Shown piece after piece: positions 1-26,093 of a stretch of DNA of 35,333 bases; position 1 is the first letter of the stretch; each line of letters opens with the position of its first letter. The notes beneath the pieces were generated by a model. The model saw nothing but the letters and a program-made list of their open reading frames with translations. It was not told the origin of the DNA and ran no database searches. Source of the stretch: Asparagopsis taxiformis (lineage: Eukaryota > Rhodophyta > Florideophyceae > Bonnemaisoniales > Bonnemaisoniaceae). The DNA lies in NCBI GenBank assembly GCA_030407315.1, contig JALQPE010001787.1, positions 1-35,333 of the forward strand, given 5' to 3'. Position numbers and translations under genes: made by a program.

Positions 1-5
1 TTTTT

Positions 6-4302: not shown

Positions 4303-4601
4303 CGTCTGTGTTCTCGGAAATGGACGCGGACGTCCACAACCTCTAGTACACCTAGTATTACTAGGCGGACGTCCATGTTCTCCAGTATTTTTGGATGTCC
4401 GCCTAGAACCGGACGTCCATGCGGTCTAGTACGTCTAGTATTACTAGGGCGACATTCATTGTTTCTAGTACCACGGATGTCCCCCTCGGGATGGACTTCC
4501 GCCATGTCTATGTCCACCTAGGACGGGCGCCGGTTCAGAAATTCAAAAATTTCGACCCCAGAAATTTCTGCCGCCGTGCTCGACATGGATGTCCGCATCC
4601 A
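4303..4601. mobile_element. Short non-autonomous element or second left terminus
   Basis: It begins with CGTCTGTGTTCTCGGAAA followed by TGGACGCGGACGTCCA (4321-4336) and ends with TGGATGTCCGCATCCA (4586-4601), so it has its own terminal inverted repeats. Inside are diverged versions of the 43-bp subterminal unit (CTAGTAC ... ACTAGG ... GGACGTCCA). The first 34 bases are an inverted match, with two mismatches, to 26060-26093 beside the retrotransposon. It is either a MITE-like deletion derivative of this family or the true left end of a 21.8-kb element running to 26093. Confidence 0.6.
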
Positions 4602-5940
4602 TCACGGCGACCACTCTATTTTTCCTTGTCGGTCGACTCCAATTTCGTCTTTAATTTTTTCATCCTCTCGCTCACACCCCCTTCCTGTTGGTGCTCACCT
4701 CCCCCGTACTGTACCTCAAACACCCCCAATACCACTCTAGCACGCATTTTCAGCTACCTATCCCCGCTTCCACGGTGCACACCTCCATTCCATACCTACT
4801 TTTCTGCTCTACCGTACAGATTTCGTATAACCAGTCCTCATACTACCTCAGAATAGGGCAAAACACCCCCTATCTCCTCGACCATGCTCTCCCCCATCAC
4901 CTTTGAAACGTATTGTTCTTCAATACCCTCTCTCCTCTACCCTCAACCCCTCTCCTTCGCCCTCTACACAAACTTCCCCTGCAGCTTACTCTTCCAAAAC
5001 CTCTCACTCCCCATCCCGTACCCGACCTGCTCCACCCCTCCCTCCCTCAGCTGCTCCATGCCCCCACGCCATCCGCATCTTCGATACCGTATACACCACC
5101 ACCACCGGCCCACGCTCCCGCACTGCGGGGTGGCTCCCCCGCCGTATCCCCAGAAACCTCCCCGCTCTGAAACACATATCAACCCCCCACTTCGCACCCT
5201 TCCTCCCACTCCCCTCCCTCCCCAAATACAATAAACCCCTTCTTCTCCATCACATCCCCACTCACCACAGCCAGAACAGACGCCACCCCCTCCCCTTCTT
5301 TCTCCTCACTTTCCTAAAAACCCCTCCTCTCGGCGCCTTCAACCGCACCCTCCTACGGTCCCACCTAAACACCTCCTCCGCCCTCACTACCCCAACACCC
5401 CGCAGCGTCTCCCCAATCCCCATAATATGCTTGTCGGCACTCCTCTCCGAATCACAATCCATTCTAAACCCGCACTCCGTACATTTCCACCTCCCCCTGT
5501 ACCATCCCAAGATTCCATCCCCCCACAGAACACATCCTCATACCACAGAAGAATTTTCTTCCTCTCATACCTCATCCTTAAAACCTCCATCAGCTCCATG
5601 TAAATTTCGATGAAAATATTTTCTCTACTATGCAATCTCAAACATGTATGAGCCTATGCCTTTCCGCTTTGTCAACCCTGAATATTGGTACTCATGTATT
5701 CATAAAATAGGGCCACCCACATCCCTATCCCGTTCTGCAAGCTTTACAAACCACTAGACGCATACTCCACAACTATACAACAAACACTACTCGCTATTTC
5801 AGACGACGCGGTACACAAGTAGCGTAGTGTCAACCTTCCGTGACGCCTTCCCTGATGCGTACAAGTGGGAAACACGTCTAGACGTATATCAGAAGTGAGT
5901 GCGGGAATTTTCGGCACAGGAGATGCTGGGCCACCAAATT
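4602..5940. other. Pyrimidine-rich stretch without a convincing gene
   Basis: About 1 kb (4640-5640) is strongly C/T-rich on the plus strand. It gives low-complexity Pro/Ser/His ORFs on plus (such as 4903-5613) and Gly/Arg-rich ORFs on minus. Codon content looks compositional rather than selected. The possible zinc-finger remnant at 5262-5510 is listed separately. Nothing is recognised in 5640-5940. Confidence 0.5.
5262..5510 (-). pseudogene. Possible decayed zinc-finger N-terminus
   Basis: The 82-aa minus-strand ORF contains KCTECGFRMDCDSERSADKH, a CxxC pair followed by a spaced His. This resembles the N-terminal Cys/His finger region of the intact transposase (MECKYEGC...ALALHERTC). Neighbouring minus-strand ORFs in other frames (5387-5641, 4964-5231) could be frameshifted continuations. 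The remainder is Gly/Arg-rich and unrecognisable. It may be a relic of a diverged transposase, or chance in a purine-rich strand. Confidence 0.2.
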
Positions 5941-6029
5941 GATTTTTCGGAAATTTTAGAATTTCTGGGCTGGCCAGCAATGCAATCGAGCTGGACATCC
6001 ACCGGACGTCCATTTCAGGTTGGTCGCGA
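5941..6029 (+). repeat. Dispersed ~200-bp repeat, 3' half only
   Basis: Only the right part of the dispersed repeat is present, from AAATTTTAGAATTTCTGGGC to GGACGTCCATTTCAGG. The palindromic left half is missing. Confidence 0.75.
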
Positions 6030-6270
6030 GAGGGTGGGGCGGGACCATGATGAAACAAGGACCAAGACCTTTCCCTGACGTGTTGAGCCTGAAATCGACC
6101 CTTCGTGAGACGCGATTTTGGCTTACAGTTGGTGCTAATAGAAGCCAGTGATAGCCCCGATCGGGGCGGCAGCCGGCTCCGGCTTACAGTTGGTGCTTAC
6201 AGACGCCAGTGATAGCCCCCGATCGGGGCCGGCGGTCGGTTCCTGGGGCCGTTGTGGCCAAATTAGACAC

Positions 6271-6469
6271 CCTGATTTGAATTAAAATTTGGGCTATTCT
6301 CAAAAACATGCACATGTGAACATGTTTTTGAGATGGGGGTGTGCCGTACGGCACAATCGACCGCCCAAATCGTTGATTTTTGCAAGATTTTTTGTGCCCG
6401 AAATTTTAGAATTTCTGGGCTGGCCAGCAGTGCATCTGAGCTGGACATCCACCGGACGTCCATTTCAGG
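6271..6469 (+). repeat. Dispersed ~200-bp palindrome repeat, copy 1
   Basis: It starts CCTGATTTGAATT and ends CATTTCAGG, so the ends share CCTGA/TCAGG. Inside are a hairpin with 12-bp arms (CTCAAAAACATG, 6299-6332) around a CACATGTG centre, a perfect 14-bp palindrome GTGCCGTACGGCAC (6341-6354), and TGGACATCCACCGGACGTCC near the right end. It is embedded in a longer duplicated block that begins about 6060 with a GC-rich motif (CGATCGGGG). Confidence 0.85.
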
Positions 6470-6769
6470 TTGGTCGTGTGCTGCCTACATCCACGCATTG
6501 CAGAAACTAAGCCAGCGGGTTCACTACTAATACAAAGTACACGGAATATGAGTAACGTGATAGGTGAGTAGTGTTTGTGTTGAGGGAGTAAGGCGGGACC
6601 ATGATGAAACAGGGAAAAGATGTCACCCAAGCATAACTTAGGCTTCAAGCCTGGAATCGAACCTTCGTAAGACGCGATTTTGGCTTACAGTTAGTGCTTA
6701 CAGAAGCCAGTGATGGCCCCGCTCGGGGCGGCGGCCGGTTCCTGGGGCCGTTGTGGCCAAATTAGACAC

Positions 6770-6968
6770 CCTGATTTGAATTAAAATTTGGGCTATTCTC
6801 AAAAACATGCACATGTGAACATGTTTTTGAGATGGGGGTGTGCCGTACGGCACAATCGACCGCCCAAATCGATGTTTTTTGCAATATTTTTTTCTGCCCG
6901 AATTGTAGAATTTCTGGGCTGGCCAGCAATGCATCTGAGCTGGACATCCACCGGACGTCCATTTCAGG
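6770..6968 (+). repeat. Dispersed ~200-bp palindrome repeat, copy 2
   Basis: Same structure as copy 1, including both palindromes. It lies about 280 bp downstream of the dioxygenase stop codon. The preceding block (6478-6769) is closely matched by 11758-12050. Confidence 0.85.
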
Positions 6969-7245
6969 TTGATCGTGTATCGTGCACGTCCACCCATTAC
7001 CGGAAGCAAGTAGGCGATGAAGCACGTACAAACCCAATTGTTCTGCTATTTCTACCATAGACCATCGAGTCTAGAGATGTGAGGGAATCGTCCTGGAAAT
7101 CATGCTCCAACCCACGAGGGAATGGACAATCTAGTTTGAAAGCATGGAACGGAAGTACATTATACTAGGTTCATAGATTGGAAGTGATAAAGGAGATGAT
7201 TATATTCTCGATAATTGTTTACCAAAGTAGTAGTTGTTAAGCTAT

Positions 7246-10200
7246 CTAGCCGTCGGAAAATTGTTCTTCCTCTTCGTCCTCACTATATTCAGGATCTCCC
7301 GGCAGAATAGGCGTTATCGGCAACTGTGGAGTTGAATAGCTCAAGATGAATTTTTGACCCGGTGTGAGGGTTCTCTTCTTGGGAGCTTCTGTCGTCTTCA
7401 TCCGCATGATTCCGAGCTGCCCTGTCTTCGGCCTACGATCTTTCTTGACCGGGATGGGAACAACTGTCTTGTGGCGAACATTGACAGGTGCCGGTTGACT
7501 TTGCCTGGCAGACCGGCGCGGAGCATTGGCGATTACTTCTTCTTCGAATCCCAACCGCCTGATGAAACCAAACGAAACATTGTCGGGAATCGGATACGAC
7601 GCATTCCTGAAATACGTGTGATACCTCGTTGTCGTGTGTGACACAACTCTGTCGACATGCCCTGCCCCGGCATGTTGTACATGGCCGTGACCGATGAAGA
7701 CTGAACGTGGCGGAACGATTACCTTCTTCAGCTTCATCGTCTTGGCGTACATATCTAATTCCAGCGCTTTGGAAAAGACGTACTTGTGGGACCCTGGACA
7801 CACCCAGATAGGGAATGGGTCATCTCCGTTGGCAATAACAAAGTAACCCGGAAGTTGATCTTTGCGGTCGCGAGGAGGAACAGGGAAATCATTGTGTGGG
7901 ACCTGCCGAGGACACCCCTTTCCCGTTATCAAAAACCGTCCCCCAGATGCCGGCATGACAAGTTTTTCTCCCGGTAAACCGCACTCCTCCAGCCCTATCA
8001 GCCGGACAAGGATTCCCAACCACACATCCAGCAGGGCTCGCCGCGTCACAAACTTGAACCGGTCGATATGCGTCTCATCGTTCTCGGCATAGTCAACCAG
8101 GCAGTGGCGCGTAGACGTGAAGCGAGCCCTCCCCTCATTCCGGTTCTTCTCATCTGTTTCATCGTCCCCAGTATTGACAATGGGACTCCACAGCTGCCGG
8201 TTCCCAGGGTCCTTGTGCACCTCCTCCCCCTCCCACGTTCCCAAAAAGTACCGAAACAATTCCTGGTTAGGAATTTCTTCCATGAGACCCAAGTCAAATG
8301 GGAACTTGTCCGACGCATCGAGGTAGCTTACATCCGCGAAATTGTGCATCACCGTATACCCTCGCTCGTTGATTTCCGTTCGGCAATTGTGGAAGTACGC
8401 CATACCAGTGCCGGCCTCATACGAATCCTTCCAGCTTGTAGACATTCGCGCAACCTGGGCGAAGTCCAGCCTCGAGGGTAGAAACGTCGATGTAGGCTCA
8501 CACATCGCCTTGGCAGCCATCTTCCACGCTGCGAAAAACATCGGATAGATGGTGTCGATCTCGAAAACAAGATGACGAGCCCGATGTTGTTCCGGAATAT
8601 GCAGCCCCTCAAACACAGGGTCCATCGCCACTTGCTTCAAATACCTCACCTCTCTGCCCTCCTCATCGATTTCCACACTCTCCAATAACAACCTGAGCTC
8701 AATCGGGGGCAGACAGCCAACCCTCACCGATGCGATGACGTCCGCGGGACGCTGCGCCAGATGATGCCCTTCAGCTCGGTCTTTGACTTCGAAATCGTCG
8801 GGAAGAGATGGCATCCGGTCGTCGAACAGGAGGTCGTGTTCAGAAGGAGAGTCACGAACGATGTAACCGTCTTCATCGACTTCCACTCCTTCCGGAACAG
8901 TGAATGTAATTGTCACTTCGCGGACCCCCTTGCTTTCGACTTGGCCCTCGTCTGCACCCTGTTTGTCTTCCTCGTCCGAAGCGGTATGGACAGATTCTTG
9001 GTTGGAGGGAGTCGCACCAGCACGTTGGTTATCTTGGGGGACAATCTCAACGGCAGAATCGGGGGAACGGGCGGAGTCTTCGTCAACCTCATCACCGGAA
9101 GCAGTGGCTTGTTGTTGATCGGTGGGTTTATCAACAACGGCCTGCTCTTCTTCCCCGGCGGATTGTTGTACCACAACCGGCTCTTCTTCCTCGAGGCGTG
9201 TGCTCCCCGTCGAGCGAAGTCGCTGTGAACGGCGGCGGATGCCATGCGAAGCAGGCTCATGTTCGACATTCCGCTGCTTCTTGTGAGTGAGTCTCACATT
9301 GGCAGCAGAAGGGCGGCGTTTGCGTCGAGCCTTAGTCTTCTTCTTCAATGTCGGATTGAAAAACTCTTTCAAGTTCGTTTCCAAATCCTGTAAACGCGTG
9401 GTTCTCCGTCGCATTCGAACCTCACTGCTCCGGTCGTCCCCTCTATACATTGCAATGGCATTGGTGAGATGCCATTGCAACTCCTTCGGCTGCTTAACCG
9501 ACCCAATTGCCATCTCTGTGCTCAGAAATGACTTGCGCATAATACTCTTTGGGCGCCCATACGCAGCGTACAGAGAATTTGCTATTGCAGTCACGCGACG
9601 GACGTATGTATAGAAGTCGTTCACGTCAAAGCGTCCATCCGGACGTCCACCATGAGCAGGGTTCAAGTACTCCGAAAGACCACGCAAGACGAAGACAAAG
9701 TTTTCTTCCAGCAACTCGCGCACTATCTTGTGGTCCAGGTGCGTTATCCCAATCTCGTTGCGGCGCTCGGAATTGTTCAGCTCACGCAACACTTCGTCGA
9801 GAACAGGATGCTTCAGCGTTGCTATAGCCAAACGCGTCCACCGCCGGGCCGTGTTCGTTGAATTCATCATCCCCATGAACTGCGCCTCGAACAATGTTCG
9901 GATGACATCAGACTCACGCAAGTCGCCAGCGTTTTCCACGTTATTTGCAACAGCAATCGTACGGATGAACTGCTGGATGGACGACAAGATTCGAACCAGG
10001 GAGCGCTCCGTCAGTTGCGTCCCAGTCGTATGGTTCGACTCTGCACTCTTGTGGATGATCTCATGAGGCTGAAGATCACTGTCGTCCTTGCGGCGAAGGT
10101 AGTACACATCCAGAGGCTGAGTAACCCAGCGCAAGCGGTTTGCGTCCTGTGGCAGCTTGGTTCTGTGCATACGGGTGAGGCGCGTGAAGTCATCGGCAAT

Positions 10201-11202
10201 GCTATGCATAGCATTGAGACGATGCAGTCCGTCGATCACGGTCACGTTCGCATTGGCATGGAATTTGCCATTCTGGAACAGACGCGTGTCGGCGGGCAGA
10301 TGCGTGTTCTGCGACCTCAGCACCGTCACAGTGATACGCGAAGAGCTCACATACCCCACAGCCAACATATTGTTGCGCAGGTCCTCCACGTGGTCTTCTT
10401 TCACATCCCGAAGGGTCACGGCCGGTTCCACTAGCTGCCTCACCAACACAGTCGCTCCTTCTCCGACGTAATCCGACGTCACAAACTTGGGCACCGTAAT
10501 TTGCGTCCCCTGCTGCTCACGAATGCTTTCCGCCACCTCCGGTTCGTCGTCCACTTCGGTTACGTCCTGCGTAGTAGCTTCGGTGACGTTGGAGCGAGCA
10601 GGGTGCTTCGTGCCTCCACTGGAGGGTCTTGCAGAGCGAGCAGGGCGCTTCGTGCCTCCCGAAACCGGGACGGAGCGTGCTGGATGCTTCGTACCCCCCG
10701 AACCAGTGATTTCGCCTGCCGGACCGGTACTGGGCATCCGTCCCGAGCTGGCCTGGTTCGTCGCTGCGTTGAAGTTTGACGCTGCAGCAGGGGTACGAAT
10801 GTCGCTAGGGCCATCCTCCGCAGCGGGGCGCATCATCCGAGTATCCCAAGGGTAAAACGCCGCGGCGTATGCTCCACCCATCGTCTCCGGCGGTCCCTCG
10901 GCGCCATCAAACATGTACGGGAACGGGAGGTCCTTGAACTTGTCCTTAGTCGCAATGTTGCGCACGACGATATAGTCGGCCTCGTCGGTTTCCGGCAGCT
11001 TGTGGTTGTGCAGCGTGCGCGGAAGGCCAACATCGCCACCAGCAGTGCTCACCGAAGCCGTCCCAATATGCACAGCCGCACCGTCCACGTCCGCAAACAA
11101 ATTGACATCGACGCCGCGCTTGAGTCCGCGCGACTCCGCTGACGCGCTCACTTGATCGCCGCAAACCGTTGAAAACAAACTGCTGAAATGCGTATCCGCC
11201 AT
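7246..11202 (-). CDS. ParB-like domain + 2OG/Fe(II) dioxygenase fusion protein
   Basis: The 1318-aa intronless ORF starts at the ATG at 11202, which has strong context (ACCATGG). The frame is open for 40 codons further but without an upstream ATG. Residues ~167-206 hold three SGGTK(H/R)PARS repeats, basic and AT-hook-like. Residues ~250-410 look like a ParB/Srx fold, with VIDGLHRLNAM (322-332) matching the family motif and a helical segment behind. A basic stretch (KKKTKARRKRR, ~619) is a likely nuclear signal, followed by a long acidic linker. The C-terminus (~1060-1210) carries HND (H1103, D1105), GHGHVQHAGAG (H1177) and RYHTYF (R1193). This is the HxD...H...R layout of double-stranded beta-helix 2-oxoglutarate oxygenases. 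Such enzymes hydroxylate or demethylate proteins, nucleic acids or small molecules. The substrate is unknown; modified DNA bases are an attractive guess given the neighbouring methylase. The tail is acidic. It is divergent from the methylase gene. Confidence 0.8.
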   Translation of the reverse strand: MADTHFSSLFSTVCGDQVSASAESRGLKRGVDVNLFADVDGAAVHIGTASVSTAGGDVGLPRTLHNHKLPETDEADYIVVRNIATKDKFKDLPFPYMFDGAEGPPETMGGAYAAAFYPWDTRMMRPAAEDGPSDIRTPAAASNFNAATNQASSGRMPSTGPAGEITGSGGTKHPARSVPVSGGTKRPARSARPSSGGTKHPARSNVTEATTQDVTEVDDEPEVAESIREQQGTQITVPKFVTSDYVGEGATVLVRQLVEPAVTLRDVKEDHVEDLRNNMLAVGYVSSSRITVTVLRSQNTHLPADTRLFQNGKFHANANVTVIDGLHRLNAMHSIADDFTRLTRMHRTKLPQDANRLRWVTQPLDVYYLRRKDDSDLQPHEIIHKSAESNHTTGTQLTERSLVRILSSIQQFIRTIAVANNVENAGDLRESDVIRTLFEAQFMGMMNSTNTARRWTRLAIATLKHPVLDEVLRELNNSERRNEIGITHLDHKIVRELLEENFVFVLRGLSEYLNPAHGGRPDGRFDVNDFYTYVRRVTAIANSLYAAYGRPKSIMRKSFLSTEMAIGSVKQPKELQWHLTNAIAMYRGDDRSSEVRMRRRTTRLQDLETNLKEFFNPTLKKKTKARRKRRPSAANVRLTHKKQRNVEHEPASHGIRRRSQRLRSTGSTRLEEEEPVVVQQSAGEEEQAVVDKPTDQQQATASGDEVDEDSARSPDSAVEIVPQDNQRAGATPSNQESVHTASDEEDKQGADEGQVESKGVREVTITFTVPEGVEVDEDGYIVRDSPSEHDLLFDDRMPSLPDDFEVKDRAEGHHLAQRPADVIASVRVGCLPPIELRLLLESVEIDEEGREVRYLKQVAMDPVFEGLHIPEQHRARHLVFEIDTIYPMFFAAWKMAAKAMCEPTSTFLPSRLDFAQVARMSTSWKDSYEAGTGMAYFHNCRTEINERGYTVMHNFADVSYLDASDKFPFDLGLMEEIPNQELFRYFLGTWEGEEVHKDPGNRQLWSPIVNTGDDETDEKNRNEGRARFTSTRHCLVDYAENDETHIDRFKFVTRRALLDVWLGILVRLIGLEECGLPGEKLVMPASGGRFLITGKGCPRQVPHNDFPVPPRDRKDQLPGYFVIANGDDPFPIWVCPGSHKYVFSKALELDMYAKTMKLKKVIVPPRSVFIGHGHVQHAGAGHVDRVVSHTTTRYHTYFRNASYPIPDNVSFGFIRRLGFEEEVIANAPRRSARQSQPAPVNVRHKTVVPIPVKKDRRPKTGQLGIMRMKTTEAPKKRTLTPGQKFILSYSTPQLPITPILPGDPEYSEDEEEEQFSDG

Positions 11203-11549
11203 GGTTGTTGAGTTGGAAAGTAAAAGAGATGGTTGACGTTGACGTATTCGAGTGATGTGGATGGTAGGTTTCACGTTGCTTGAAGAATGGTCGTGAACGC
11301 CAATCGCTGGAAATAATAACACAATACAACCGAAATTTTGTTAGGTACACACCTATCGTGACCGCTGGAATGCAAGACAGGCAATCGAGATGTGAGTGTC
11401 CGTTCGGAACGGGCCCGAGTCGGGCTCTCGAAACCTGACGAGGTGGCGTGAAGCAGGCAGTGTCCTTGATGTGTAATGTGTTAAAATTACAGCTGTCAAG
11501 CTAGGCGGCTTTTGGGGCGGCTGCGAGCACCCCTTTATCCGGGGAACAC
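11203..11549. promoter_or_regulatory. 5' flank of the dioxygenase gene
   Basis: This 347-bp region upstream of the minus-strand ATG presumably holds promoter and 5' UTR. The ATG-proximal 120 bp have no in-frame stop. I see no certain TATA box. The far end joins repeat copy 3. Confidence 0.35.
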
Positions 11550-11748
11550 CCTGATTTGAGTTAAAATTTGGGCTATTCTCAAAAACATGCACATGTGAAC
11601 ATGTTTTTGAGATGGGGGTGTGCCGTACGGCACAATCGACCCGCCCAAATCGTTGATTTTTGCAAGATTTTTTGTGCCCGAAATTTTAGAATTTCTGGGC
11701 TGGCCAGCAGTGCATCGAGCTGGACATCCACCGGACGTCCATTTCAGG
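11550..11748 (+). repeat. Dispersed ~200-bp palindrome repeat, copy 3
   Basis: Same ends and both palindromes as copy 1. It is followed by a block (11758-12050) nearly matching 6478-6769, showing that a larger unit of about 500 bp was duplicated. Confidence 0.85.
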
Positions 11749-12051
11749 TTGATCGTGTGCTGCCTACATCCACGCATTGCAGCAACTAAGCAGGCGGGAT
11801 CACTACTAATATAAAGTGCACGGAATATGAGTAACGTGATGGGTGAGTAGTGTTTGTGTTGAGGGAGTAAGGCGGGACCATTATGAAACACGGAAGAAGA
11901 TGCGTACCTAGCATAACTTAGGCTTGAAGCCTGGAATCGACCCATCTTTCGGCGCCATTTAGCCTTACAGTTAGTGCTTACAGAAGCCAGTGATGACCCC
12001 GCTCGGGGCGGCGGCTCCGGTTCCTGGGGCCGTTGTGGCCAAATTAGACAC

Positions 12052-12251
12052 CCTGATTTGAATTAAAATTTGGGCTATTCTCAAAAACATGCACATGTGA
12101 ACATGTTTTTGAGATGGGGGTGTGCCGTACGGCACAATCGACCCGCCCAAATCGATGATTTTTTACAATTTTTTTGTGCCCGAAATTTTAGAATTTCTGG
12201 GCTGGCCAGCAGTGCAATCGAGCTGGACATCCACCGGACGTCCATTTCAGG
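12052..12251 (+). repeat. Dispersed ~200-bp palindrome repeat, copy 4
   Basis: Full-length copy with the 12-bp-arm hairpin and GTGCCGTACGGCAC. The downstream flank (GAGGCGGGACCATGATG...) matches that after the partial copy at 5941-6029. Confidence 0.85.
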
Positions 12252-12439
12252 TTGGTCGTGAGAGAGTGAGGCGGGACCATGATGGAACAAGGACCAAGAC
12301 CTGTCCCTGGCGTATTGAGCCTGAAATTGACCCTTCGTCAGACGCCATTTAGCCTTACAGTTAGTGCCTACAGAAGCCAGTGACAACCCCACTCGGGGCG
12401 GCGGCCGGTGCCTGGGGCCGTTCTGGCCAAATTAGACAC

Positions 12440-12606
12440 CTTGATTTGAATTAAAATTTGGGCTATTCTCAAAAACATGCACATGTGAACATGTTTTTGA
12501 GATGGGGGTGTGCCGTACGGCACTTTCGACCGCCTAAATCGATAAAATTTTGCAATTTTTTTCCTGCCCGAAATTCTACAAGTTCTGGGCTGGCCAGTAA
12601 TGCATT
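12440..12606 (+). repeat. Dispersed ~200-bp palindrome repeat, copy 5 (3' truncated)
   Basis: Begins CTTGATTTGAATT and keeps the hairpin and the 14-bp palindrome. It ends after CTGGGCTGGCCAGTAATGCA, losing the GGACATCC...GGACGTCC end. Confidence 0.8.
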
Positions 12607-13634
12607 AGCTATCTCCTCTAAACCGATTCTAACAAGCAGAAAGAATCCTCTCCTTCATGACGATGCTCTCCATCGTCTTTTCGAAGCCATTTCCGTACGA
12701 AAAATAATCGAAAAACATATTTGACTTTAACCTAACAGCTATCGCGAGCACCGTACTCAGCTATATTTCCTCTGTAATTTCCTTCCTCCAACCAATCAAT
12801 AGCCGCTTGGTCACAGGCTTAAAAGCCTTCCACTATCTGTCCTATCCATCGAAGACCCTCGGAGGGTTCGATCCAGGCCTTGATCACCCATGATGGGTGT
12901 GCAACCCGAGAAAATGAAAATGGAACATATTGCGACAGGGACGAGATATCATTCCATGAAAGAGAACTTCTCTTTCGTTTACTTTTTTCTAACAAGATTC
13001 TAAACGTCTACAAACCCTATGTCGTCCGTCCGTTTTCATCCCGGAGAGATGTGGATGTGAGGTAAGACGCAGTGGTGATGTTGTGTTGATTCCCACAGAC
13101 GGAGGTGGAGGAGGTGGCTACGGAGGAAGCCTGGAGAACTTGTCCGGTACTGACATCTCACATGTTGCCATTAACGGAGGTGGTGGAGGAGGCTATGGTG
13201 CAAGCCTGGAGAACATGTGACTCACATCTCGCAGATGTCAGTACCCATGGATGAGAAGAAAAGCATGTTGAGGTGCGGTTCGGATATTCGATCCATTAAC
13301 GGAGGTGGTGGAGGAGGCTATGGTGGAAGCCTGGAGAAGAATAGAGTAGTCCTATACCCATGGATCACAAGAAGACGTTGTTGGGCTCCTTTTCGAAGCC
13401 CATTCGTCTCTTGAATAAATTTAGCACCCAAATCATATACGATTGCCGAGTTGACACCCCGTATGTCTCGTTGGTAGAAATAGCAGGGGTTCCACCACTC
13501 AGCTGGCGGGAAGTAGTTACTGATTATATGAGATATGGCTTAGCTCCCGCCAAAACCGATAGCTCTGGGCTCAGGTTCTCCAAATGTGGTTATACGAATG
13601 TGTTCTGACAATGCTAGAAGACGAATATCTGCAT
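12607..13634 (+). other. Gene-free stretch with three Gly-rich repeat units
   Basis: No ORF here is recognisable. Three copies of a ~40-bp unit (GGAGGTGGTGGAGGAGGCTA then GGAAGCCTGGAGAA) lie at about 13101-13138, 13171-13213 and 13296-13338. Each can encode a Gly-rich peptide of the type NGGGGGGYGGSLE. They sit in short ORFs (13217-13414 holds the third). A remnant of a glycine-rich gene, or simple repeats, are both possible. Confidence 0.45.
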
Positions 13635-13815
13635 CCTGATTTGAATTAAAATTTGGGCTATTCTCAAAAACATGCACATGTGAACATGTTTTTGAGATGG
13701 GGGTGTGCCGTACGGCACAATCGACCGCCCAAATCGATGTTTTTTTGCAATATTTTTGCTGCCCGAAATTGTAGAATTTCTGGTCTGGCCAGCAATGCAT
13801 CTGAGCTGGACATCC
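13635..13815 (+). repeat. Dispersed ~200-bp palindrome repeat, copy 6
   Basis: Full left part with both palindromes. The right end diverges after GAGCTGGACATCC. It lies about 350 bp upstream of the methylase start codon. Confidence 0.8.
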
Positions 13816-17100: not shown

Positions 17101-17366
17101 TTTGGATTGTTCCGGCTCCGTTCTGTTCGGCGCAGTTCATCAACGACCCGCGGTATTTGCGAGGTGAGGACACTCCGGCGGAAGACACCAGGCGGATGGC
17201 CAACGTCGAGTTTGTCGAGAACTACAGCAGCGGTTCGACGGGGAAGAAGCTCAAGGCGAAGGACCTAGAAAATCCGAAGATCATTGTAGTACGTGCAATC
17301 CGCGATATCCGTCCGGGGCAGGAGCTCTACGTTCATTATGGGACAGCGTTTAGAGCATGGAATTAG
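14166..17366 (+). CDS. Beta-class DNA amino-methyltransferase fused to SET domain
   Basis: The 1066-aa intronless ORF starts at the first ATG. Residues 1-450 are unrecognised and partly helical. The catalytic motif TDPPYNVRR (506-514) is motif IV of N6-adenine/N4-cytosine methylases. After an acidic insertion (~579-620) the S-adenosylmethionine site follows at 741-757 (GDIVVDPFSGTFATGK), then FVGSDMD (768-773). DPPY before the FxGxG-like motif is the beta-class order of bacterial restriction-modification enzymes. Residues ~905-1062 form a SET domain: GRGLFA (910-915), YYGTVV (928-933), FINDPR (991-996), NVEFVENY (1013-1020) and RPGQELYVHYG (1049-1059). It should methylate DNA (6mA or 4mC unresolved) and a protein lysine, probably in the nucleus. 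The SET NHS-type motif is FINDP here, so peptide activity could be weakened. The methylase half suggests bacterial ancestry. Confidence 0.85.
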   Translation: MTNKRRRNSNPIVDDATVPILREPASPWEDSSDMGTRRNVGRAARETTLAGKDFLRLLLDLFAHSSFADLTDKPGGFTYADLGAWVAQGTEEQFLALQGRLSMAFSGRSKNAGVEADVAEIVMAEMNVERAKQIVRLALPIAEFSRQDERIGQWVEHCILSGIVPQTFLIGCNMLPSPLQAPQRGEPSAFVLAPPETFEVLMYFQALSIIRNHNKNLPRRRIGDAAEEGNEAARVPAHRKSTNRACYVVQVLYHAWTDVAFAAKFSSFEELMAPYIIFDSSEHWFDVLDEGLFAPMEQKLDLYHDKAPLSHPDGYGGKVETRTSAQHSAFRDLVRKFFDRLQFLIVNPDLYTWPESDRWGALEIYLSSGNPDKLPAYFDTLDEDVMAVLRPAPQAADAEKVPKPVDDTPTRRNTGGRGLVPSTRHTTRLQLGPGRTSLTAQGPSPPSPSPHATEEQESEGQALAKDFLSKMSQYCRVYDVPFEDLVSADESREHVPITGNVQLILTDPPYNVRRKRNDSNSSYDRLTAEDMQASIEVFDELLRPGGHGIVFCSVLQFYEWFHYLETYKGPQSEGPTDAAASDDGSDEEEVTSMNSDSEASQHSGEESADEEEEEDEEEDVVRNSVFFVDEVPLLFVRLPGHLYQMPGRKRYQRMNMAEVAIHFWKRGVPFKTGSEMVAYRNHGYMDGTYPAWCNVTINMPAIDSNEMVWRTRSTTGATVRVRAEQKSVALMMELISQHSQPGDIVVDPFSGTFATGKAAMSLPEHRVFVGSDMDKLCVARSLPKLCAVMSRVILSNNTDMRVTTEAKQSAEKFLASPSVTMRTQRERRIIEPPPGLPLYQRFPKYIRQYLWQLCPESIASHEHMEKPVHYWPPSLRRWLQTENPRVMRAHDCVAKKLSVRPSLIKHPNAGRGLFAEQTFNVGDEVCAYYGTVVYSDMSKESMRFAYGEGHMAITKETFLMYAIKLYATAEDDENIEHPIWIVPAPFCSAQFINDPRYLRGEDTPAEDTRRMANVEFVENYSSGSTGKKLKAKDLENPKIIVVRAIRDIRPGQELYVHYGTAFRAWN

Positions 17367-17591: not shown

Positions 17592-17792
17592 AGTTGAAAT
17601 GGACGCCCGGTGGATGTCCAGCTCAGTTGCATTGCTGTCCGGCCCAGAAATTCTACAATTCAGGGCAGAAAAAAATATTGCAAAAAACATCGATTTCAGC
17701 GGTCGATTGTGCCGTACGGCACACCCCCATCTCAAAAACATGTTCACATGTGCATGTTTTTGAGAATAGCCCAAATTTTAATTCAAATCAGG
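17592..17792 (-). repeat. Dispersed ~200-bp palindrome repeat, copy 7 (inverted)
   Basis: Full-length copy on the minus strand with both palindromes. It lies between the methylase and the coiled-coil gene. It is the only inverted copy, so copies 6 and 7 bracket the methylase gene as an inverted pair. Confidence 0.85.
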
Positions 17793-18025
17793 ACGTCTTC
17801 CGGACATAGGGGTGCTCGCGGCCTAGCTCTACAGCTGTAATTGTACCTCATTAAATACTGTTGATGACTGCCTACCGTATACAATCTGGGCTGTTGGCGT
17901 ATTATCCGGTACTTGACCTGACCTGAACGTTCATCGCAGACCGTTGTGGTTACCGACACTATACAGCAATCTTTTTTGTATCTCGTGCAACTCAATCGTT
18001 CCATCGCTTCCGGGAAAGCTTCATT
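17793..18025 (+). promoter_or_regulatory. 5' flank of the coiled-coil gene
   Basis: A 233-bp region between repeat copy 7 and the ATG, with pyrimidine-rich sequence close to the start. No certain TATA box. Promoter role inferred from position only. Confidence 0.3.
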
Positions 18026-20309
18026 ATGCCGCCGCGTATTGCGAAGAAAGCTCCAAAGCCTCCGGGCCTCCAGAAAACCCGGTCAGCAGCTGCTGTATCG
18101 AGTGCCCGACAATCCCGTGCGAAGAAGCGGTCTGGGCCTACCGGCAGCATTGAACCGCGGTCCGGTAGTCGCAAGACGGACCGGCGCAGAACTGGGGATC
18201 CGCAGCGAGAAAGTGAGGAAGGAGGAACGGCGCGGAGAGAGATGGGGCTTGACCGAGGCAAGCGTGCTCGCAGGGACAGTGAACATCATGATGATGACAT
18301 GATAGTGGCTCAAAACATGTTGGAATTGCGGCAGAGTGCTATGGCAAAGGTAGTTCCTCCCGGGTTGGCAGATGCGGAGGTGCTGCAGACGGAGTCCCAG
18401 CCGGGGGTTCCGAGACACTGGAGGCTGTGACCCCCACTGCGCCAACTATGCCGAGTACATCAGCCCCAGCAGGTAATGCAGTCAGGGACCCGAGGATAGC
18501 GGCAAGGGATGTTGTTTCTGAGCAACGTTCACAGGATGCCAACTATCATCGGCGGTCAGGTGGTACTGAGGGGAGAGAGCAGCCGGAGTGCGGGCCTCGT
18601 CACAACAGACTGTCATTGGTGCCAAATATGCGCGTAACGCCCCCGCGACGTCAGGCTATTGGCGATGGAGGACATCATATTCCCGATAGCGTGGGAGATG
18701 GGGGGACGGTGAGGGCAGAGAGGTTGCATCCGCCGGAATCCATCGATTTAATGGCGAGTCGCATCAATGCGCAGAAGAAGAAGATCGCGGAGCTGGAAAA
18801 AAAGTGTTTAGCCAGGACATAGCAAACAAGGCGCTCACCACGGAGATAGTTGCGTTGGAGGCTAAGGTGAAGACTCTGCAGGCGGAAAATGCCAGCCTTA
18901 CTGCAATTGCGAGAACAGGTAGAATCAGTGATCACGGTGGCGGTAAGTCGAAAATACAGAAAGCCATTCCTGTGAAATACCTTGGAGTTCTTAGGGCGGT
19001 TGAGGAAAACCTGACAAAGTGGTGCAAGAACGAGACTATGGAGCTGGACCCTATAGCGGAACAAACGCAGAGACGTTGGACTGGACGTACCATCGAGGTA
19101 GAGCCGGTAGAAGGGGCACTTTGGAGCGAAAACGGTGTAGGATATATTGCTACCCCTCCGGGCTATATCATCAAGAATCTGCAGTGGTATACACCTTCGT
19201 ACAGGGACGAGAGTGATCTGCTGAATGACTTGGTGCGACACGTACTGCGTCAAAGTCCGTGGTGTGATGTGTTTTCCGATGAGGAGCAGCGTGTGTGCTG
19301 TCAAGAGGCTGTGGCGGGGAGCAAGGAATTGAAAGTGAAGGTGACGCAGAAACTGTCCGACGTGATGAGTGCACGGAAGCGTAATGCGAGGGACAGATTG
19401 TTCGGTTCGCTGGGGTACACGAAATTAATGTCTAGATGCACGATGCTGACGACGCGAGCTGAGATGGACGAGCGAGAGGAACAAAAGCGCGAAGCGTCTG
19501 AGAAGCTTTTGAAACGGGAAAGTAACGGTGATTTGGATATGGGGAGGTGGCGAACGGCACCGTTCTCAGAGCTGCGATACAGCAAAGGCTTGGTTCCTGA
19601 CAGCTTCGAAATGGAAGTGAATGGTGATGCATGGTTTAACAACCGAGTAGCTGTGAATGTGCTGGACATCTTCAGGGGTTATTCGATACGACCAGAACAA
19701 GTAATGGACATAGAGACGAGCATACTAACGCTGGCGCGCCTGGATGCTTGGCTAGTGACTACTGTGGAGTGTTTGGATGAACCGAAGGGGAAAGGAGGTG
19801 CACGGCAGAAGGAGTTTACAAGGCGGTACAGTCAATATGTGGGGGTAGCTTTTCAGCAATTAGTTGGTATGGTGGTGTACTGCATGTCTTGTCTCCAAGG
19901 CTCGCAAGCAAGGGAAGAAACGGACGTTGTCGAGAGCGAACAGCGGACTAGTGCACAGTCACGGCATGTGTTTGCAAGCCGTACTGTGACGAGAGAGGCT
20001 GTTGAAGTGTGGCAAAGCGGAGAGGGGTCTGGAATTGTTCATGTCGTTGATGATGTAAACCGCTGCTCATCACTTGTTCTAGTGTCCGAGGATTGGATTC
20101 AATCGCATATTACGTCAAACCTCGGTGCTGTAATGGATTGTGTGATTGCGCAAGGACTAATTGGCGCAGAACTTTTCGTCGTTGACCCATATGCTGGACA
20201 CCTGAGTGCAAACCTGAATGTCGAAATCAATGCCCCACAGTATGGGGGCATGGAGCGGCGCCATGCAGCCACTGCTGATAACGGTTTTGGCGTAATGGAG
20301 GATGGTTGA
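18026..20309 (+). CDS. Coiled-coil protein of unknown function, split over three frames
   Basis: Three overlapping ORFs (18026-18430, 18427-18822, 18804-20309) each step to the -1 frame and together give about 760 residues. The N-terminus is basic and Pro/Ala/Ser-rich with Arg/Lys clusters, probably nuclear or DNA-binding. The middle is a coiled coil: INAQKKKIAELEKK leads directly into DIANKALTTEIVALEAKVKTL across the second shift. The C-terminal ~400 residues are a folded, unrecognised domain. The first shift falls at a G5 run (18403-18407), after which the -1 frame reads GGSETLEAVTPT. The second falls at A AAA AAG (18798-18804), a canonical -1 slippery heptamer in the right phase. Programmed frameshifting, decay, or two one-base undercalls in homopolymers could each explain it. 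It ends 77 bp from the convergent transposase stop. Confidence 0.65.
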
Positions 20310-20385: not shown

Positions 20386-20391
20386 TTTATT
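20386..20391 (-). terminator. Poly(A) signal overlapping transposase stop
   Basis: On the minus strand the stop codon TAA is embedded in AATAAA (GAAGAATAAATC). With only 77 bp between convergent stops, the two transcripts probably overlap at their 3' ends. Confidence 0.45.
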
Positions 20392-23300
20392 CTTCTTCAT
20401 TATCATCTGTGAATTGGTAATCAGTGTTGGTGTAGAAGCGGTTGAGATAGAAACGGTGGTCCGACCAGTGCATTTGTTTCGTAAATGGCTTGACTGGAAA
20501 GTTACTTCGTACGATGTGCACGGTGCCAGATATAGTAGATGCAGGAATGAGGTCAAACCAAGGACCACCTGCACTGTGGGATGCAGTGTCATTGCTGTCA
20601 ACGGATCCGTTGTCCGGGTCCCATGTGGACCACTTTAAACAAATGCACCCAAGTGATTTTTCCACAGCGGTTTTTGGGGCAAAGCAGGTCATATACTGAA
20701 CGAAAGCGAGTTCTACAGGTTGAAACAGGTTTGGAGACTGCAGGCGTACCAGTGCCAGGACGCGCCCTACCCATATGGTTCTGTAGTCATCGGCAGTTCC
20801 GGAGATGACGACAAAGGAGTACTGCGATCTCTTTGCGGGGCCGAACGATGAAGTTGCAAAGACGCGCTGCTGCTTGTGCCTCGACACGTTTGTGGGGCGA
20901 AGCATGCCACTGTGCGGGTCAAAGTCGTCGGCATCTGGGACGTACCCTCCCATGACGTAGGCGGACTTTACCACGGTGACGGAAATGTCCATGTCATGTA
21001 TTGGAGGGCCTTCTGCCGTGGCGCGCAGTCTAGCGAGGGTGAGGAACGCTTGTGCAGCTGTGTCACCGAGTTGCTGGAATAGCGTTATGGTGCCAGACGG
21101 GAACGAGGAGTTGTGCAGAGGCAAAAGAGTGGCAGGATCGGGCTGTCCGTCGATATCTGCAACGAGGAGGGTTGCATCGGGCAGCAGGGAGGCAAAGTCG
21201 TGCAGTGCAACGGTGAATCCGTCGCGAACGAGTACTGCACCGTCTGTGGGCGATATCATGCGTGGGTTTCCCAATGTGTTCGATGGGGTGTGACCAGTTG
21301 GAGTGGCCAAGGAGAATTCCATGTGGCGAATAGTCTCTTCCATGGCTGTGGAGCGCCTTCGAGAGGTTTTCCTATAACTCTGTTTGAACAGAAGATGCGA
21401 GTGTTCGTAGGGGCCTGCATCAATGTGTTCCAGGGCGCCATATCTCTGCAAGTCACCGGGAAGATGGTCTAGAAGATGGAACTTGAAAGTTTTGAGACCT
21501 GTGGTGTGGAATGGGCCGAGGGTGGAGAGCATTGATTGTTTGAAATAGGAAATGGAGTTCTGGAGGCTTTCTAGTTCGGCGGCAGTCCAGTGCTTGATGC
21601 GACCGCGTTTCATGACCCATGCGACGAGGTCAGAGTATTGCGTGCAGATGGAAGTGAGGGGGGCTGTATCTACTTCGTCACAGCATGTGTCAATGAATGC
21701 TGCGATGAAAGGGAACACCATGTCGACATGGTGATAGTCTTTGGCTGCGAGCATGCCGCGTATGCCGTCCTCCGTGAAGAGGCCGTTCAAATTGGTGCCC
21801 TTCTCACCCTTGGAGAAGTCGACATGAAGACCGGTGATGTAGTAGTCGCGTTCGATAGCGGACAGAATGCTGTTTGAGCCGGCGAGGATGGATTTTTTCA
21901 CCTTCTTGAAGGTGCGAGGTGTCCCGGAATGGGAGGCAGTGGTGGTGAGGTCTGGGGAGCTGAGGCGGTGGACAATGCACTGTTTGATGAGCTTTGAGAT
22001 GCCGAGGTGGAGATTGTGCAGAGGCTCGAAGGAGAAAATGTTGTAGGGGTCTAGGGGACTGTTGGTGGGTAAAAGAGCGGTCGATTCGAGGACAGAGTGT
22101 TGTTCGAGGAGGGAGAGAGCTTCGAGCGGAGCAGTTGTATGCTCCTGAGCGCTCTCTTGGCGTGCAGAGCGTGTATCATCGAGGGAGCGGGGCTGGTGTG
22201 GCGCGCTGGATTCAAGTTGAGTGGCGGGGATGTAGCAGCGGTGGCAGGGATGTGTGGTGGTAGTGCTGTTGCGAGTGCATGACAGCTCTTTGGCCTCTGG
22301 AAAGTCGCAGCAATAATTGGCTAGGATGGGAAAGCATTGGCGGGCAGTTGCAGTGGAGTCTGTGCAGGGGAACCCGGAAGAGAACGCGGTGGATAGGGAC
22401 GAAAACACTTTTTCGAGTGCTTTATGAAGAATATCAATTTTGCGAGCGCGACTAGCAGAACTAGAGGTTGTCGGCATTTCATCACCGAACAAGGCGTTGG
22501 ACGAAGGGTTAACAATGTACGGAAGATACCCGACGATGGTGAGGCCGGTACGGATGCAGTGGCGACGGAGGGGGGCGGAGAAGTTGAGCAGTGTGACGTG
22601 TATGGGGTATGCGACGATTGCGGAGCTCTTGAGGCTTGTGCTGCTCTTGTCGGAGTACACTTGGAGGAGGCCGGCAAAGGAGGAAGCGGTGGGATCATTT
22701 TCCTCTGCCCATACGACCTGTGGATCTTCCGAGAGCTGCACGCGCTGTCTAGTAACCTGGTGCAGCGTTTTCGCGAATTCTGTGTGTAGGGGATGAGAAA
22801 ATATTGCGGTGCCGTCTGGGGCGGTCTGTGGGGAGGGGTGGAAGAGAGTATTTTGGTCGTTAGCCAGTGCTAACTGCCTGCGGAGCATGTCGACTGGGTC
22901 GCGGAGGTACAGCTGTGCCGAGTACTTACCAGTTTTGTCTGGAATGATGTGGCTCTTGTAACCTTCGGTGCGGAAATGTGTTTCGACCATGGAAGCGGTA
23001 ACGTGGCGACATTCTTCTACGGTGCGAACGGCGCTGTTGAACTTTTCTAGGGAGAATGCGGGGTCTTGTAGGATGGTGATGACTTCGCTCACGCGGCCAG
23101 CGCCGGCCTTGTACTCGAGGGTTGTGAGACTGGCGGCGAGGGATTGCACGAGGAGGTCTGCGCGGGAGGGGGTTGAGGTTGGTGGCAGTGAAGCGTCACA
23201 GGGTGAGTCGCTGGAGGAAGCACGACCAGATTCTGGGTCTGGGGAGCTGGGTTGCGGGGAATCATGGTCGCCGTTTCGAGCAGGCTCATGGGTGACGGCA

Positions 23301-23425
23301 GGGACACGAGCGTTGTTGAAATGTTGGGGAGAGGGGTTGAAACGGTAGCGACACGTTCGCTCATGCAGCGCGAGCGCATAAGCATCTACGCAGTAGTAGA
23401 AGCACCCTTCATACTTGCATTCCAT
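20387..23425 (-). CDS. CACTA/Plavaka-like DNA transposase (intact)
   Basis: The 1012-aa ORF starts at ATG 23425 with no frameshift. The N-terminus has a Cys/His cluster (MECKYEGC...ALALHERTC), a probable zinc finger for end recognition. The core follows the order seen in Plavaka and related CACTA-superfamily transposases: YSDKSST (257-263), AYPIHVTLLNFSAPLRR (272-288) with VGYLP (298), CCDFPEAKELSC (372-383) with PCHRC (393-397), EPLHNLHLG (467-475), and a His-rich helix region KTFKFHLLDHL (645-655) with YEHSHLLFKQ (673-682). These correspond to the RNase-H-fold DDE core and its helical insertion. I do not assign individual catalytic acids. It would cut and paste elements bearing the 16-bp TIR and 43-bp repeats. 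The family call is from motif resemblance only, and the related KDZ group is an alternative. Intactness suggests recent activity. Confidence 0.8.
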   Translation of the reverse strand: MECKYEGCFYYCVDAYALALHERTCRYRFNPSPQHFNNARVPAVTHEPARNGDHDSPQPSSPDPESGRASSSDSPCDASLPPTSTPSRADLLVQSLAASLTTLEYKAGAGRVSEVITILQDPAFSLEKFNSAVRTVEECRHVTASMVETHFRTEGYKSHIIPDKTGKYSAQLYLRDPVDMLRRQLALANDQNTLFHPSPQTAPDGTAIFSHPLHTEFAKTLHQVTRQRVQLSEDPQVVWAEENDPTASSFAGLLQVYSDKSSTSLKSSAIVAYPIHVTLLNFSAPLRRHCIRTGLTIVGYLPYIVNPSSNALFGDEMPTTSSSASRARKIDILHKALEKVFSSLSTAFSSGFPCTDSTATARQCFPILANYCCDFPEAKELSCTRNSTTTTHPCHRCYIPATQLESSAPHQPRSLDDTRSARQESAQEHTTAPLEALSLLEQHSVLESTALLPTNSPLDPYNIFSFEPLHNLHLGISKLIKQCIVHRLSSPDLTTTASHSGTPRTFKKVKKSILAGSNSILSAIERDYYITGLHVDFSKGEKGTNLNGLFTEDGIRGMLAAKDYHHVDMVFPFIAAFIDTCCDEVDTAPLTSICTQYSDLVAWVMKRGRIKHWTAAELESLQNSISYFKQSMLSTLGPFHTTGLKTFKFHLLDHLPGDLQRYGALEHIDAGPYEHSHLLFKQSYRKTSRRRSTAMEETIRHMEFSLATPTGHTPSNTLGNPRMISPTDGAVLVRDGFTVALHDFASLLPDATLLVADIDGQPDPATLLPLHNSSFPSGTITLFQQLGDTAAQAFLTLARLRATAEGPPIHDMDISVTVVKSAYVMGGYVPDADDFDPHSGMLRPTNVSRHKQQRVFATSSFGPAKRSQYSFVVISGTADDYRTIWVGRVLALVRLQSPNLFQPVELAFVQYMTCFAPKTAVEKSLGCICLKWSTWDPDNGSVDSNDTASHSAGGPWFDLIPASTISGTVHIVRSNFPVKPFTKQMHWSDHRFYLNRFYTNTDYQFTDDNEEE

Positions 23426-23873: not shown

Positions 23874-23999
23874 ATGGCTTGGGCCATACTCAATCTCACT
23901 GCCGGCGATGATTTCGAGTATGCACAGCAAGACTTAAGCGGACGCAGAAAGCTGTCCGGTCGACGCCGCAGGCTCCACTCCGCCCTCATCACCGACTGA
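23874..23999 (+). CDS. Small 41-codon ORF, divergent from transposase
   Basis: It starts MAWAILNLTAGDDFEYAQQD and ends in a basic Arg-rich tail. Its ATG has strong context (GACCATGGC). A longer frame upstream (from 23739) has an ATG in weaker context. The left arm keeps the first 24 codons but stops early. No family recognised. It may be a true micropeptide or the first exon of the spliced outward transcript. Confidence 0.3.
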   Translation: MAWAILNLTAGDDFEYAQQDLSGRRKLSGRRRRLHSALITD

Positions 24000-24022
24000 T
24001 CTTCTTTGACCGACTTTGCTTT

Positions 24023-24060
24023 GTACGTGCGCGAATCTTGATCAAGATTCGCGCACGTAC
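24023..24060. repeat. Perfect 38-bp palindrome
   Basis: Two 19-base arms meet at TTGATCAA with no mismatch and no loop, starting GTACGTGCGCGAATC. It lies 24 bp after the small ORF and just before the intron-like array. It could be a cruciform, a transcription terminator-like hairpin in RNA, or the site of a dimeric DNA-binding protein. The left arm has an imperfect copy. Confidence 0.9.
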
Positions 24061-24179
24061 CTTCGTTCCATCCTCTACCCTCGAGGGTATGCGTTGAGGG
24101 AAGCGTGGGTTTTGAGTCTGACTATTTCCGTTGATGCGATATTTTTCATGGGAAGCCTGTTGACTGATGGTGTGTATTG

Positions 24180-25115: not shown

Positions 25116-25484
25116 GAGTGGTGAAGCAGGAACGGCAGGACTGAAGGAGAGTGAAGAAGGGATGTAGGAAGATGGGGAATGAAGCTGTGAGGTGTTTCTG
25201 GTATGTGTATATTTTGGGGCATACGATAGAAGTGAGAGTGCGTTTCAAGTGGTGTAAGATTTTGCTGACCATGTTCGTGTTTGATGTCTTGATGATTTAA
25301 TGGGCTGGGGTGGTGTCGAGGAAAGCGGGGATGGTATTGGGAAGGAGCGTATTTTTTGTAATCTAGGTCGTGAGGGTTCTTGCAGTATGTGCGGATGGTG
25401 GTGCATGGCGTTCGGATGGTAGGGAGAACGCGATAGTGAGGGAGATGGGTGATCGACGATATGCTGACAGGTATTTTGTATTCT

Positions 25485-25582
25485 GGCTGGATACGTATTT
25501 CCTATTCTAACCGGGTATTTATTTCCTATTCTAACCGGGTATTTATTTCCTATTCTGACCAGATATGTATTCCCTATTCTAG
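25485..25582 (+). repeat. ~27-bp tandem repeats, about 4 units (right arm)
   Basis: Units like CCTATTCTAACCGGGTATTT repeat four times, the middle two nearly identical. Mirrored at 363-470. Confidence 0.8.
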
Positions 25583-25704
25583 AGAGACGTATTGTATACG
25601 AGCAGTTTCCTAAATGAGAGAATAAAATACGGTCCGATATGGGCCCTGAATTTACCATCCGCTGTAATTTCTTCCCTCCCGGTTTTCGCTGATATATTGT
25701 ATAC

Positions 25705-25962
25705 TGGATGTCGGGTCCTAGTATTCCGCCATATGTACTAGAGAAAGTGGATGTCGGGTCCTAGTATTCCGCCATATGTACTAGAGAAAGTGGATGTCGG
25801 GTCCTAGTATTCCGCCATATGTACTAGAGAAAGTGGATGTCGGGTCCTAGTATTCCGCCATATGTACTAGAGAAAGTGGATGTCGGGTCCTAGTATTCCG
25901 CCATATGTACTAGAGAAAGTGGATGTCGGGCCCTAGTATTCCGCCATATGTACTAGAGAAAG
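25705..25962 (+). repeat. Subterminal 43-bp tandem repeats, 6 units
   Basis: Six units with an exact 43-bp period, each TGGATGTCGGG(T/C)CCTAG followed by TATTCCGCCATATGTACTAG and GAGAAAG. Only the sixth differs visibly (T to C). They lead directly into the terminal 16-mer and are probable transposase-binding sites. Confidence 0.92.
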
Positions 25963-25978
25963 TGGACGTCCGCATCCA
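25963..25978 (-). repeat. Right terminal inverted repeat 16-mer
   Basis: TGGACGTCCGCATCCA is the reverse complement of the left end with one A/G difference and is followed by AAAAA and a T-run. Transposition ends near here under the long-arm model. Confidence 0.8.
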
Positions 25979-25995
25979 AAAATTTTTTTTTTTTT

Positions 25996-26093
25996 TGGAC
26001 GCGGACGTTCATTTGTTCTAGTAAATCTCGGGGCCGACTAGGACCCGTACTAGAGAGACTGGACGTCCGCGTCCACTTCCGAAAACACAGACG
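25996..26093. mobile_element. 80-bp mini-element plus extended outer TIR
   Basis: TGGACGCGGACGTTCA (25996-26011) and TGGACGTCCGCGTCCA (26060-26075) are inverted repeats around a core with CTAGTA and ACTAGGACCCGTAC, like one decayed 43-bp unit. The right 16-mer is an exact inverted match to 4321-4336, and the next 18 bases match 4303-4320 with two mismatches. It may be a tiny MITE inserted beside the big element, or the real right end of it. Confidence 0.6.

Follow-up and report, generated by a model that had tools for sequence, protein, structure and literature searches.

The stretch analysed here (the window) comprises 35,333 nucleotides of contig JALQPE010001787.1 from the Asparagopsis taxiformis assembly GCA_030407315.1, and most of it is occupied by a transposon with a Plavaka-type transposase. 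The transposon is a mobile unit with inverted ends and mostly 2-bp target duplications, in which four genes travel together, and it has a class of short derivatives. Besides the transposase, the genes encode a coiled-coil protein and two fusions: a DNA methylase joined to a SET domain, and a ParB-like domain joined to a predicted 2-oxoglutarate (2OG)-dependent oxygenase. We propose, with about an even chance of being right, that the two fusions enable the transposon to place marks on its own DNA and chromatin and thereby escape silencing by the host.

Four genes between a common pair of ends

The strongest evidence on the cargo comes from counts across the 141-Mb assembly of the source, in which reversed-pattern controls gave 0 for every tag. 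Gene tags of 42 to 45 bases, searched with up to 3 mismatches and counting fragments too, occur at 987 places for the transposase (two of them in the window itself), 984 for the coiled-coil gene, 977 for the methylase, 957 for the SET domain and 908 for the oxygenase. The near-equality of these five counts shows that the cargo genes belong to the element. Exact 39-base tags from the two ends occur at 1145 places on the left (574 + 571) and 1186 on the right (591 + 595). Judging by the Plavaka domain and the literature about it, the genome is likely fungal; if the assembly represents both nuclear genomes of a dikaryon, every count of copies may be inflated up to two-fold. If all were full length, some 950 gene-bearing copies would make up about 20 Mb of the 141 Mb, an upper figure given that copies are nested and truncated and that two nuclear genomes may be present.

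Two further copies were read over their full length, C164 and C192 (125.9-147.3 kb). They hold the same four genes between the same ends and in the order found in the window, namely ParB-oxygenase (-), methylase-SET (+), coiled-coil (+) and transposase (-), with about 95-99% identity to the window across long aligned stretches. A preliminary description of the stretch, made from its letters, had proposed one mobile unit with this gene set, and had named copies without cargo, or cargo occurring mainly elsewhere, as the outcome that would speak against it. The two complete copies bear the proposal out, and the cargo tags (908-984) are as frequent as the transposase tag.

The terminal inverted repeats are 47 bp long, left and right being identical at 41/47 positions, and the element begins and ends with CGTCTGTG..CACAGACG (CGTCTG..CAGACG). 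Of 20 slices taken where the left end of other copies was expected, four contain it, with an identical start base and differing flanks; in the remaining 16 the end falls outside the 601-base slice. Both ends were examined in 10 of 24 paired copies. Seven of these 10 have an exact 2-bp target duplication (TA, TT, TA, TC, TG, TT, AA; the chance of at least 7/10 is about 4e-7), one (C102) has a 3-bp duplication (TAA) and two (C164 and C88) have none; a 2-bp duplication is present at C192. Such 2-bp (or 2-3-bp) duplications are of the Plavaka type. The transposase matches the Plavaka domain PF18759 with E=1.7e-24 over profile positions 24-318 of 325. The preliminary label 'Plavaka-like' thus holds for the transposase domain and fails for the termini: neither of the two types described in the consulted parts of PMC12730594, PlavakaA (TGT..ACA) and PlavakaB (CATCA..TGATG), fits this element, whose termini lie outside both.

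Size classes were obtained by pairing 100 listed left ends (up to contig C204) with 89 of 100 listed right ends. Among the resulting 24 neighbouring, inward-facing pairs, 14 span 10.0-12.0 kb and six span 20.0-22.5 kb, the others spanning 14.2 and 15.6 kb, and 29.1 and 40.2 kb. No frame of more than 250 amino acids (aa) is found in the 10 kb read of each of two short copies, C20 and C112, which covers all except their last 241 and 825 bases. In both, the left end and the right subterminal region are retained, together with internal repeats facing either way.

To sample copies for cargo, we took 20 minus-strand transposase hits preceded by at least 14 kb, among 123 listed, and inspected two 300-base slices for each. 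The methylase place holds a window-like methylase in 8/20, a second fixed arrangement in 7/20, other parts of the element in 2/20, a 36-base match in 1/20 and nothing in 2/20. In the second arrangement, window sequence from 13.5-13.8 kb lies inverted at the methylase place, the methylase block being apparently flipped between inverted internal repeats (window 12007-12292 and 17612-17823). The ParB-oxygenase place holds its gene in 11/20, other element sequence in 2/20 and nothing in 7/20. Exact tag matches on contigs up to C276 were also paired, 99 for the transposase, 97 for the oxygenase and 70 for the methylase, the misses including mismatched places and contig ends. Both arrangements recur among them: a transposase place lies 6.5-7 kb downstream in the opposite sense, as in the window, for 31 of the 70 methylase places, and 7.5-8 kb upstream in the same sense for seven. 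Altogether, 41/70 methylase places have a transposase place within 12 kb and 36/70 have an oxygenase place within 14 kb.

Table 1. Features of the transposon and its flanks, in window positions
Feature	Position	Strand	Basis or details
Left flank	1..4301	+	Part of another copy of the element, cut within its transposase gene
Whole transposon	4303..26093 (21,791 bp)		Inverted ends; same end base elsewhere; gene order in two complete copies
Left terminal inverted repeat, CGTCTGTGTTCTCGG...	4303..4349	+	1145 exact 39-mers genome-wide
Left subterminal CGGACGTCCA / CTAGTA repeats	4327..4470	+	Direct repeat family D17
Internal repeats 1, 2	6226..7010	+	36-bp inverted repeat and 16-bp palindrome at 6340, 6839
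ParB-like / predicted 2OG-Fe(II) oxygenase fusion	7246..11202	-	1318 aa, open
Predicted iron/2OG motif H1103-x-D1105 ... H1177 ... R1193	7624..7896	-	Invariant columns of alignment A2
ParB-like N domain and helical part	9460..10485	-	aa 240-581; IDGLHRLNA at aa 323-331
Internal repeats 3 to 5	11505..12680	+	Palindromes at 11619, 12121; one-mismatch form at 12509
Internal repeat 6	13632..13815	+	Palindrome at 13704; 40 identical places scored genome-wide, own included
DNA methylase-SET fusion	14166..17366	+	1066 aa, open (frame 1083 aa)
Beta-class amino-methylase domain	15666..16490	+	PF01555; DPPY at aa 507, DPFSGT at aa 747
SET domain (YYG, INDPRY, ELYVHYG)	16893..17342	+	PF00856; conserved columns of alignment A1
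Internal repeat 7, inverted	17612..17823	-	Palindrome at 17708
Coiled-coil gene	18027..20309	+	Frame broken in window copy, two pieces
Plavaka transposase	20387..23425	-	PF18759; open from first ATG at 23425
Right subterminal 43-bp tandem repeats and one unit resembling the left ones	25662..26023	-	Families D3, D17
Right terminal inverted repeat	26047..26093	-	1186 exact 39-mers
Right flank	26094..30390	+	Frame reading as Ty3-type pol; outside the element

Cargo proteins, internal repeats and flanks

A Pfam search places N6_N4_Mtase (E=3.1e-15) and SET (E=1e-6) inside a single frame, the SET match spanning all 105 profile positions. The methylase half has its DPPY motif ahead of the S-adenosylmethionine (SAM) motif, as in beta-class amino DNA methylases, and its nearest solved relatives are DpnA (E 1.9e-13), CcrM and MboIIA. 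The SET half has, by sequence, the catalytic tyrosine and the asparagine motif of lysine methyltransferases; in alignment A1, N993 is invariant and Y1058 nearly so. Solved relatives of this half among the matches listed are KMT2A/B and EZH2, all weak. The earlier claims of an intact transposase and of a methylase and SET domain in one chain are thus sustained by Pfam matches and open frames. A genome search with the fusion protein scored 42 matches, the window's included, out of 4144 candidates, and all 42 are full-length, open and about 100% identical. Nine distant relatives share 27-33% identity, with both domains flagged by Pfam in six. In a scan of viral contigs with the alignment of the fusion, limited to 600 candidate stretches, at least 44 loci were found; none of them matches past residue 889, so none covers the SET part. 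In the gap ahead of the gene, a 46-nt GGAGGTGG-rich repeat occurs three times (window 13093-13338, family D19).

For the second fusion, the window protein has no match in Pfam, NCBIfam, PHROG or PDB sequence searches. Structure comparison gives fold matches of its first part to ParB-N, and the GxxR motif of the ParB/sulfiredoxin fold is present, which supports a ParB-like fold; a relative of the protein, P0013, matches a ParB PHROG with E 0.0018. The other part is a predicted oxygenase, as suggested by its motif and by weak fold matches (the best Foldseek E with the 2OG model is only 1.3). A TET/JBP Pfam match was sought in five members of alignment A3 and found in none, and PE-type TET/JBP proteins are said, in the part of PMC12730594 consulted, to be very distant in sequence from known ones. 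Of the fusion first described, then, the ParB-like part stands by fold, and the 2OG part by motif and these weak matches.

As for the described coiled-coil protein, the copies C164 and C192 encode it in a single 794-aa frame, but in the window the gene is split across two frames (17927-18430 and 18690-20309). Profile searches with it returned only weak coiled-coil profiles, below their cut-offs.

Both cargo fusions are under purifying selection between copies. In the one pair of copies compared, window and C192, the ratio of nonsynonymous to synonymous substitution rates (dN/dS) is 0.40 for the ParB-oxygenase gene (P 4e-5), 0.45 for methylase-SET over the 937 codons open in C192 (P 0.013) and 0.33 for the transposase (P 0.008). 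For the coiled-coil gene, a synonymous-site test between C164 and C192 had 10 changes only, too few to inform. Broken frames occur in C164 (methylase and also ParB-oxygenase), in C192 (5' part of the methylase) and in the window (coiled-coil gene). The ratio of observed to expected CpG is 1.08 in the right flank, 0.97 in the element and 0.82-0.83 in two short copies of 10-11 kb. C-to-T change at CpG versus elsewhere is 0.0040 versus 0.0035 in C164 and 0.0097 versus 0.0056 in C192. With CpG content near expectation and CpG-to-TpG change near that of other C-to-T change, the copies bear no strong trace of repeat-directed mutation; C192 shows a mild one.

Seven internal repeats adjoin the cargo genes in the window. 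Among 28 repeats compared from five copies, 27 contain an exact 36-bp inverted repeat TCTCAAAAACATGCACATGTGAACATGTTTTTGAGA and 17 an exact 16-bp palindrome TGTGCCGTACGGCACA; in the remaining 11 the palindrome has one mismatch, in the first two bases or the last. Mean conservation is 0.99 within these motifs, 0.81 outside them and 0.94 in the nearest columns, a contrast that is partly built in, since the 28 repeats were chosen by the motifs themselves (up to 3 and up to 8 mismatches). Genome-wide there are 7333 exact places for the 36-mer and 6301 for the palindrome, with controls at 0. On the first contigs listed, C7 to C23, a perfect palindrome follows the 36-mer in 40/44 cases outside four known short copies and in 0/23 inside them; rather than pointing to function, this split may mark the lineage of the short class. 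Bacterial parS sites are likewise 16 bp long, with TGT...ACA ends, and the comparison suggests itself because a ParB-like protein is encoded beside the repeated palindrome. We also considered the cargo block as a separate element ended by internal repeats and rejected this, as the repeats also lie between genes and in the gene-free copies read.

The flanks do not form a single empty site, since the left one is the inside of another copy and the right one is Ty3-like. The left flank matches window 24727-21504 at 97%, and the same junction is found in C164: the window's left side and C164 lie at one insertion place within an outer copy's transposase gene, where C164 has 22 extra bases. A shared site combined with a different right flank would follow from copies recombining with one another or from a join in the assembly; the frame in that flank is, by its motifs, presumably a Ty3-type pol. 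Past this frame, long open frames of 727 and 422 aa (30700-34152, minus strand) have no convincing Pfam match. C102 is nested in another copy, within the ParB-oxygenase gene: the flanks of C102 match window 9803-9744 (98%) and 9746-9687 (100%). In all, four of the copies whose flanks were compared with the window are nested in other copies, twice in the coiled-coil gene and once each in the ParB-oxygenase and transposase genes. We also rejected a single composite element ended by the two inverted Plavaka stretches of the window (1-4301 and 21.5-26 kb), the first being a piece of the outer copy, with the same junction in C164.

What the cargo may do for the element

In the self-marking that we propose, the methylase half, a DPPY enzyme of the beta class related to DpnA and CcrM, is predicted to write N6-methyladenine (6mA), while the SET half, judging from its family, would methylate histone lysine in the same chromatin. 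The ParB-like half is predicted to tether the second protein to the element's DNA, with the palindromes as possible sites, and the oxygenase half to oxidise methylated bases; the coiled-coil protein may serve as an accessory DNA-binding factor. Element chromatin would then stay permissive, so that the transposase is expressed and copies do not decay, and short copies would be mobilised in trans. Parts of the literature point in this direction: 6mA goes with permissive chromatin in eukaryotes (from the consulted part of PMC12695648), and TET/JBP genes on transposons have been interpreted as anti-silencing (likewise, PMC12730594).

A bolder version, which we hold to be unlikely as a whole, can be built by analogy with parS. 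The ParB-like protein would load at TGTGCCGTACGGCACA, spread over the element and bring the oxygenase, as methylase-SET simultaneously writes 6mA and a histone mark. The thousand or so copies would then form a self-marked compartment, perhaps a tenth of the genome, with the gene-free copies and their imperfect palindromes riding along.

The main rival to self-marking is self-restraint, in which the methylase-SET fusion dampens the element by methylating its DNA and histones and the oxygenase reverses this, as a switch. A writer and a possible eraser within one element would suit such a switch. So would a precedent that weighs against self-marking: the bdelloid methylase N4CMT deposits N4-methylcytosine (4mC) at transposons, with SETDB1 variants proposed as silencing partners (PMC8885841, in part). 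However, about a thousand tags per gene, near-identical open copies and repeated nesting are unlike restraint, and the weak KMT2A/B and EZH2 matches listed for the SET half do not favor it either. We consider self-restraint rather unlikely.

Alternatively, the cargo may be a passenger: host or foreign genes captured once and merely carried by a successful transposon. The good amplification of short 10-12 kb copies (14/24 paired ends) and the broken cargo frames of some copies agree with this. Yet purifying selection on both fusions, similar to that on the transposase in one copy pair, and the persistence of the fusions in distant relatives make a passenger role quite improbable.

Methylation could also serve the timing of transposition, as Dam methylation times IS10 transposition. 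Methylated ends or internal repeats would tell new from replicated copies and license the transposase. The DPPY beta-class methylase with its resemblance to DpnA and CcrM, and the palindrome-bearing repeats retained in the two gene-free copies read, fit this analogy, but it has no need for a SET domain or an oxygenase, and the target motif is not known; we think it very doubtful. Finally, a composite locus of separate-ended elements around unrelated chromatin genes, or a misjoined assembly, might be suspected from the dissimilar window flanks and the outer-copy site shared with C164, but it is largely refuted, and highly improbable, now that the four genes recur between these ends in both C164 and C192, the latter with a 2-bp duplication, and the tags are near-equal in number.

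Should self-marking be correct, a mobile element would carry a DNA-plus-histone writing enzyme in one chain, whereas the described transposons that we found carry single epigenetic genes. It would also offer a direct test of whether DNA amino-methylation, reported to be low in Dikarya, can arrive by transposon, and of its effect on silencing. With 900 to 990 gene-tag places in one assembly, the marks should be readable with ordinary long-read data. The element would further provide a case of a ParB-like domain carried by a eukaryotic transposon, along with a putative site for its binding.

Comparison with known systems

The maize En/Spm (CACTA) element resembles the present one in combining a transposase with an accessory protein (TnpA/TnpD) and repeated subterminal motifs, but it has no methylase, SET or ParB-like domain. 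KDZ elements (Kyakuja, Dileera, Zisupton) have a transposase unrelated to that of Plavaka, and we know of no methylase-SET gene in them. What they share with our element is the association of a fungal transposon with an oxygenase, in their case TET/JBP (PMC12730594, as far as consulted).

Transposons with TET/JBP genes, Plavaka included, and transposons with SET genes are already published (PMC12730594, consulted parts), and giant Plavaka-flanked repeats are mentioned for Amoebidium (PMC11244446, consulted part). The consulted part of a 2026 review on DNA methylation in fungi names MetB (PF02384) and MT-A70 enzymes as the 6mA writers of fungi and does not mention the present methylase type (PMC13297926). 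The preliminary description did not recognise this gene combination, which fits the literature searched, mainly open-access: in it, as far as the texts were available and with few subscription papers, neither a methylase-SET nor a ParB-oxygenase fusion was found reported from a transposon. The text of PMC12730594 contains 'ParB' 0 times, and the parts examined describe no transposon-borne DNA methylase. The Plavaka elements presented there share with ours the transposase domain, 2-bp duplications and an oxygenase-type cargo gene; ours differs in its CGTCTG..CAGACG termini, its methylase-SET cargo and the joining of the predicted oxygenase to a ParB-like domain. HarbingerS and MuDR of Phytophthora (cited in the same source, seen in part) also bear a SET gene on a DNA transposon, but belong to other transposase superfamilies, and their SET is not described there as fused to a DNA methylase.

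A further parallel is the bdelloid N4CMT (PMC8885841, consulted part), in which a bacterial-type N6_N4 amino-methylase is likewise joined to a eukaryotic chromatin domain. N4CMT, however, is a host gene with an SPPY motif and a chromodomain reader, and it makes 4mC, whereas the present fusion combines DPPY with a SET writer and is carried by about a thousand mobile copies.

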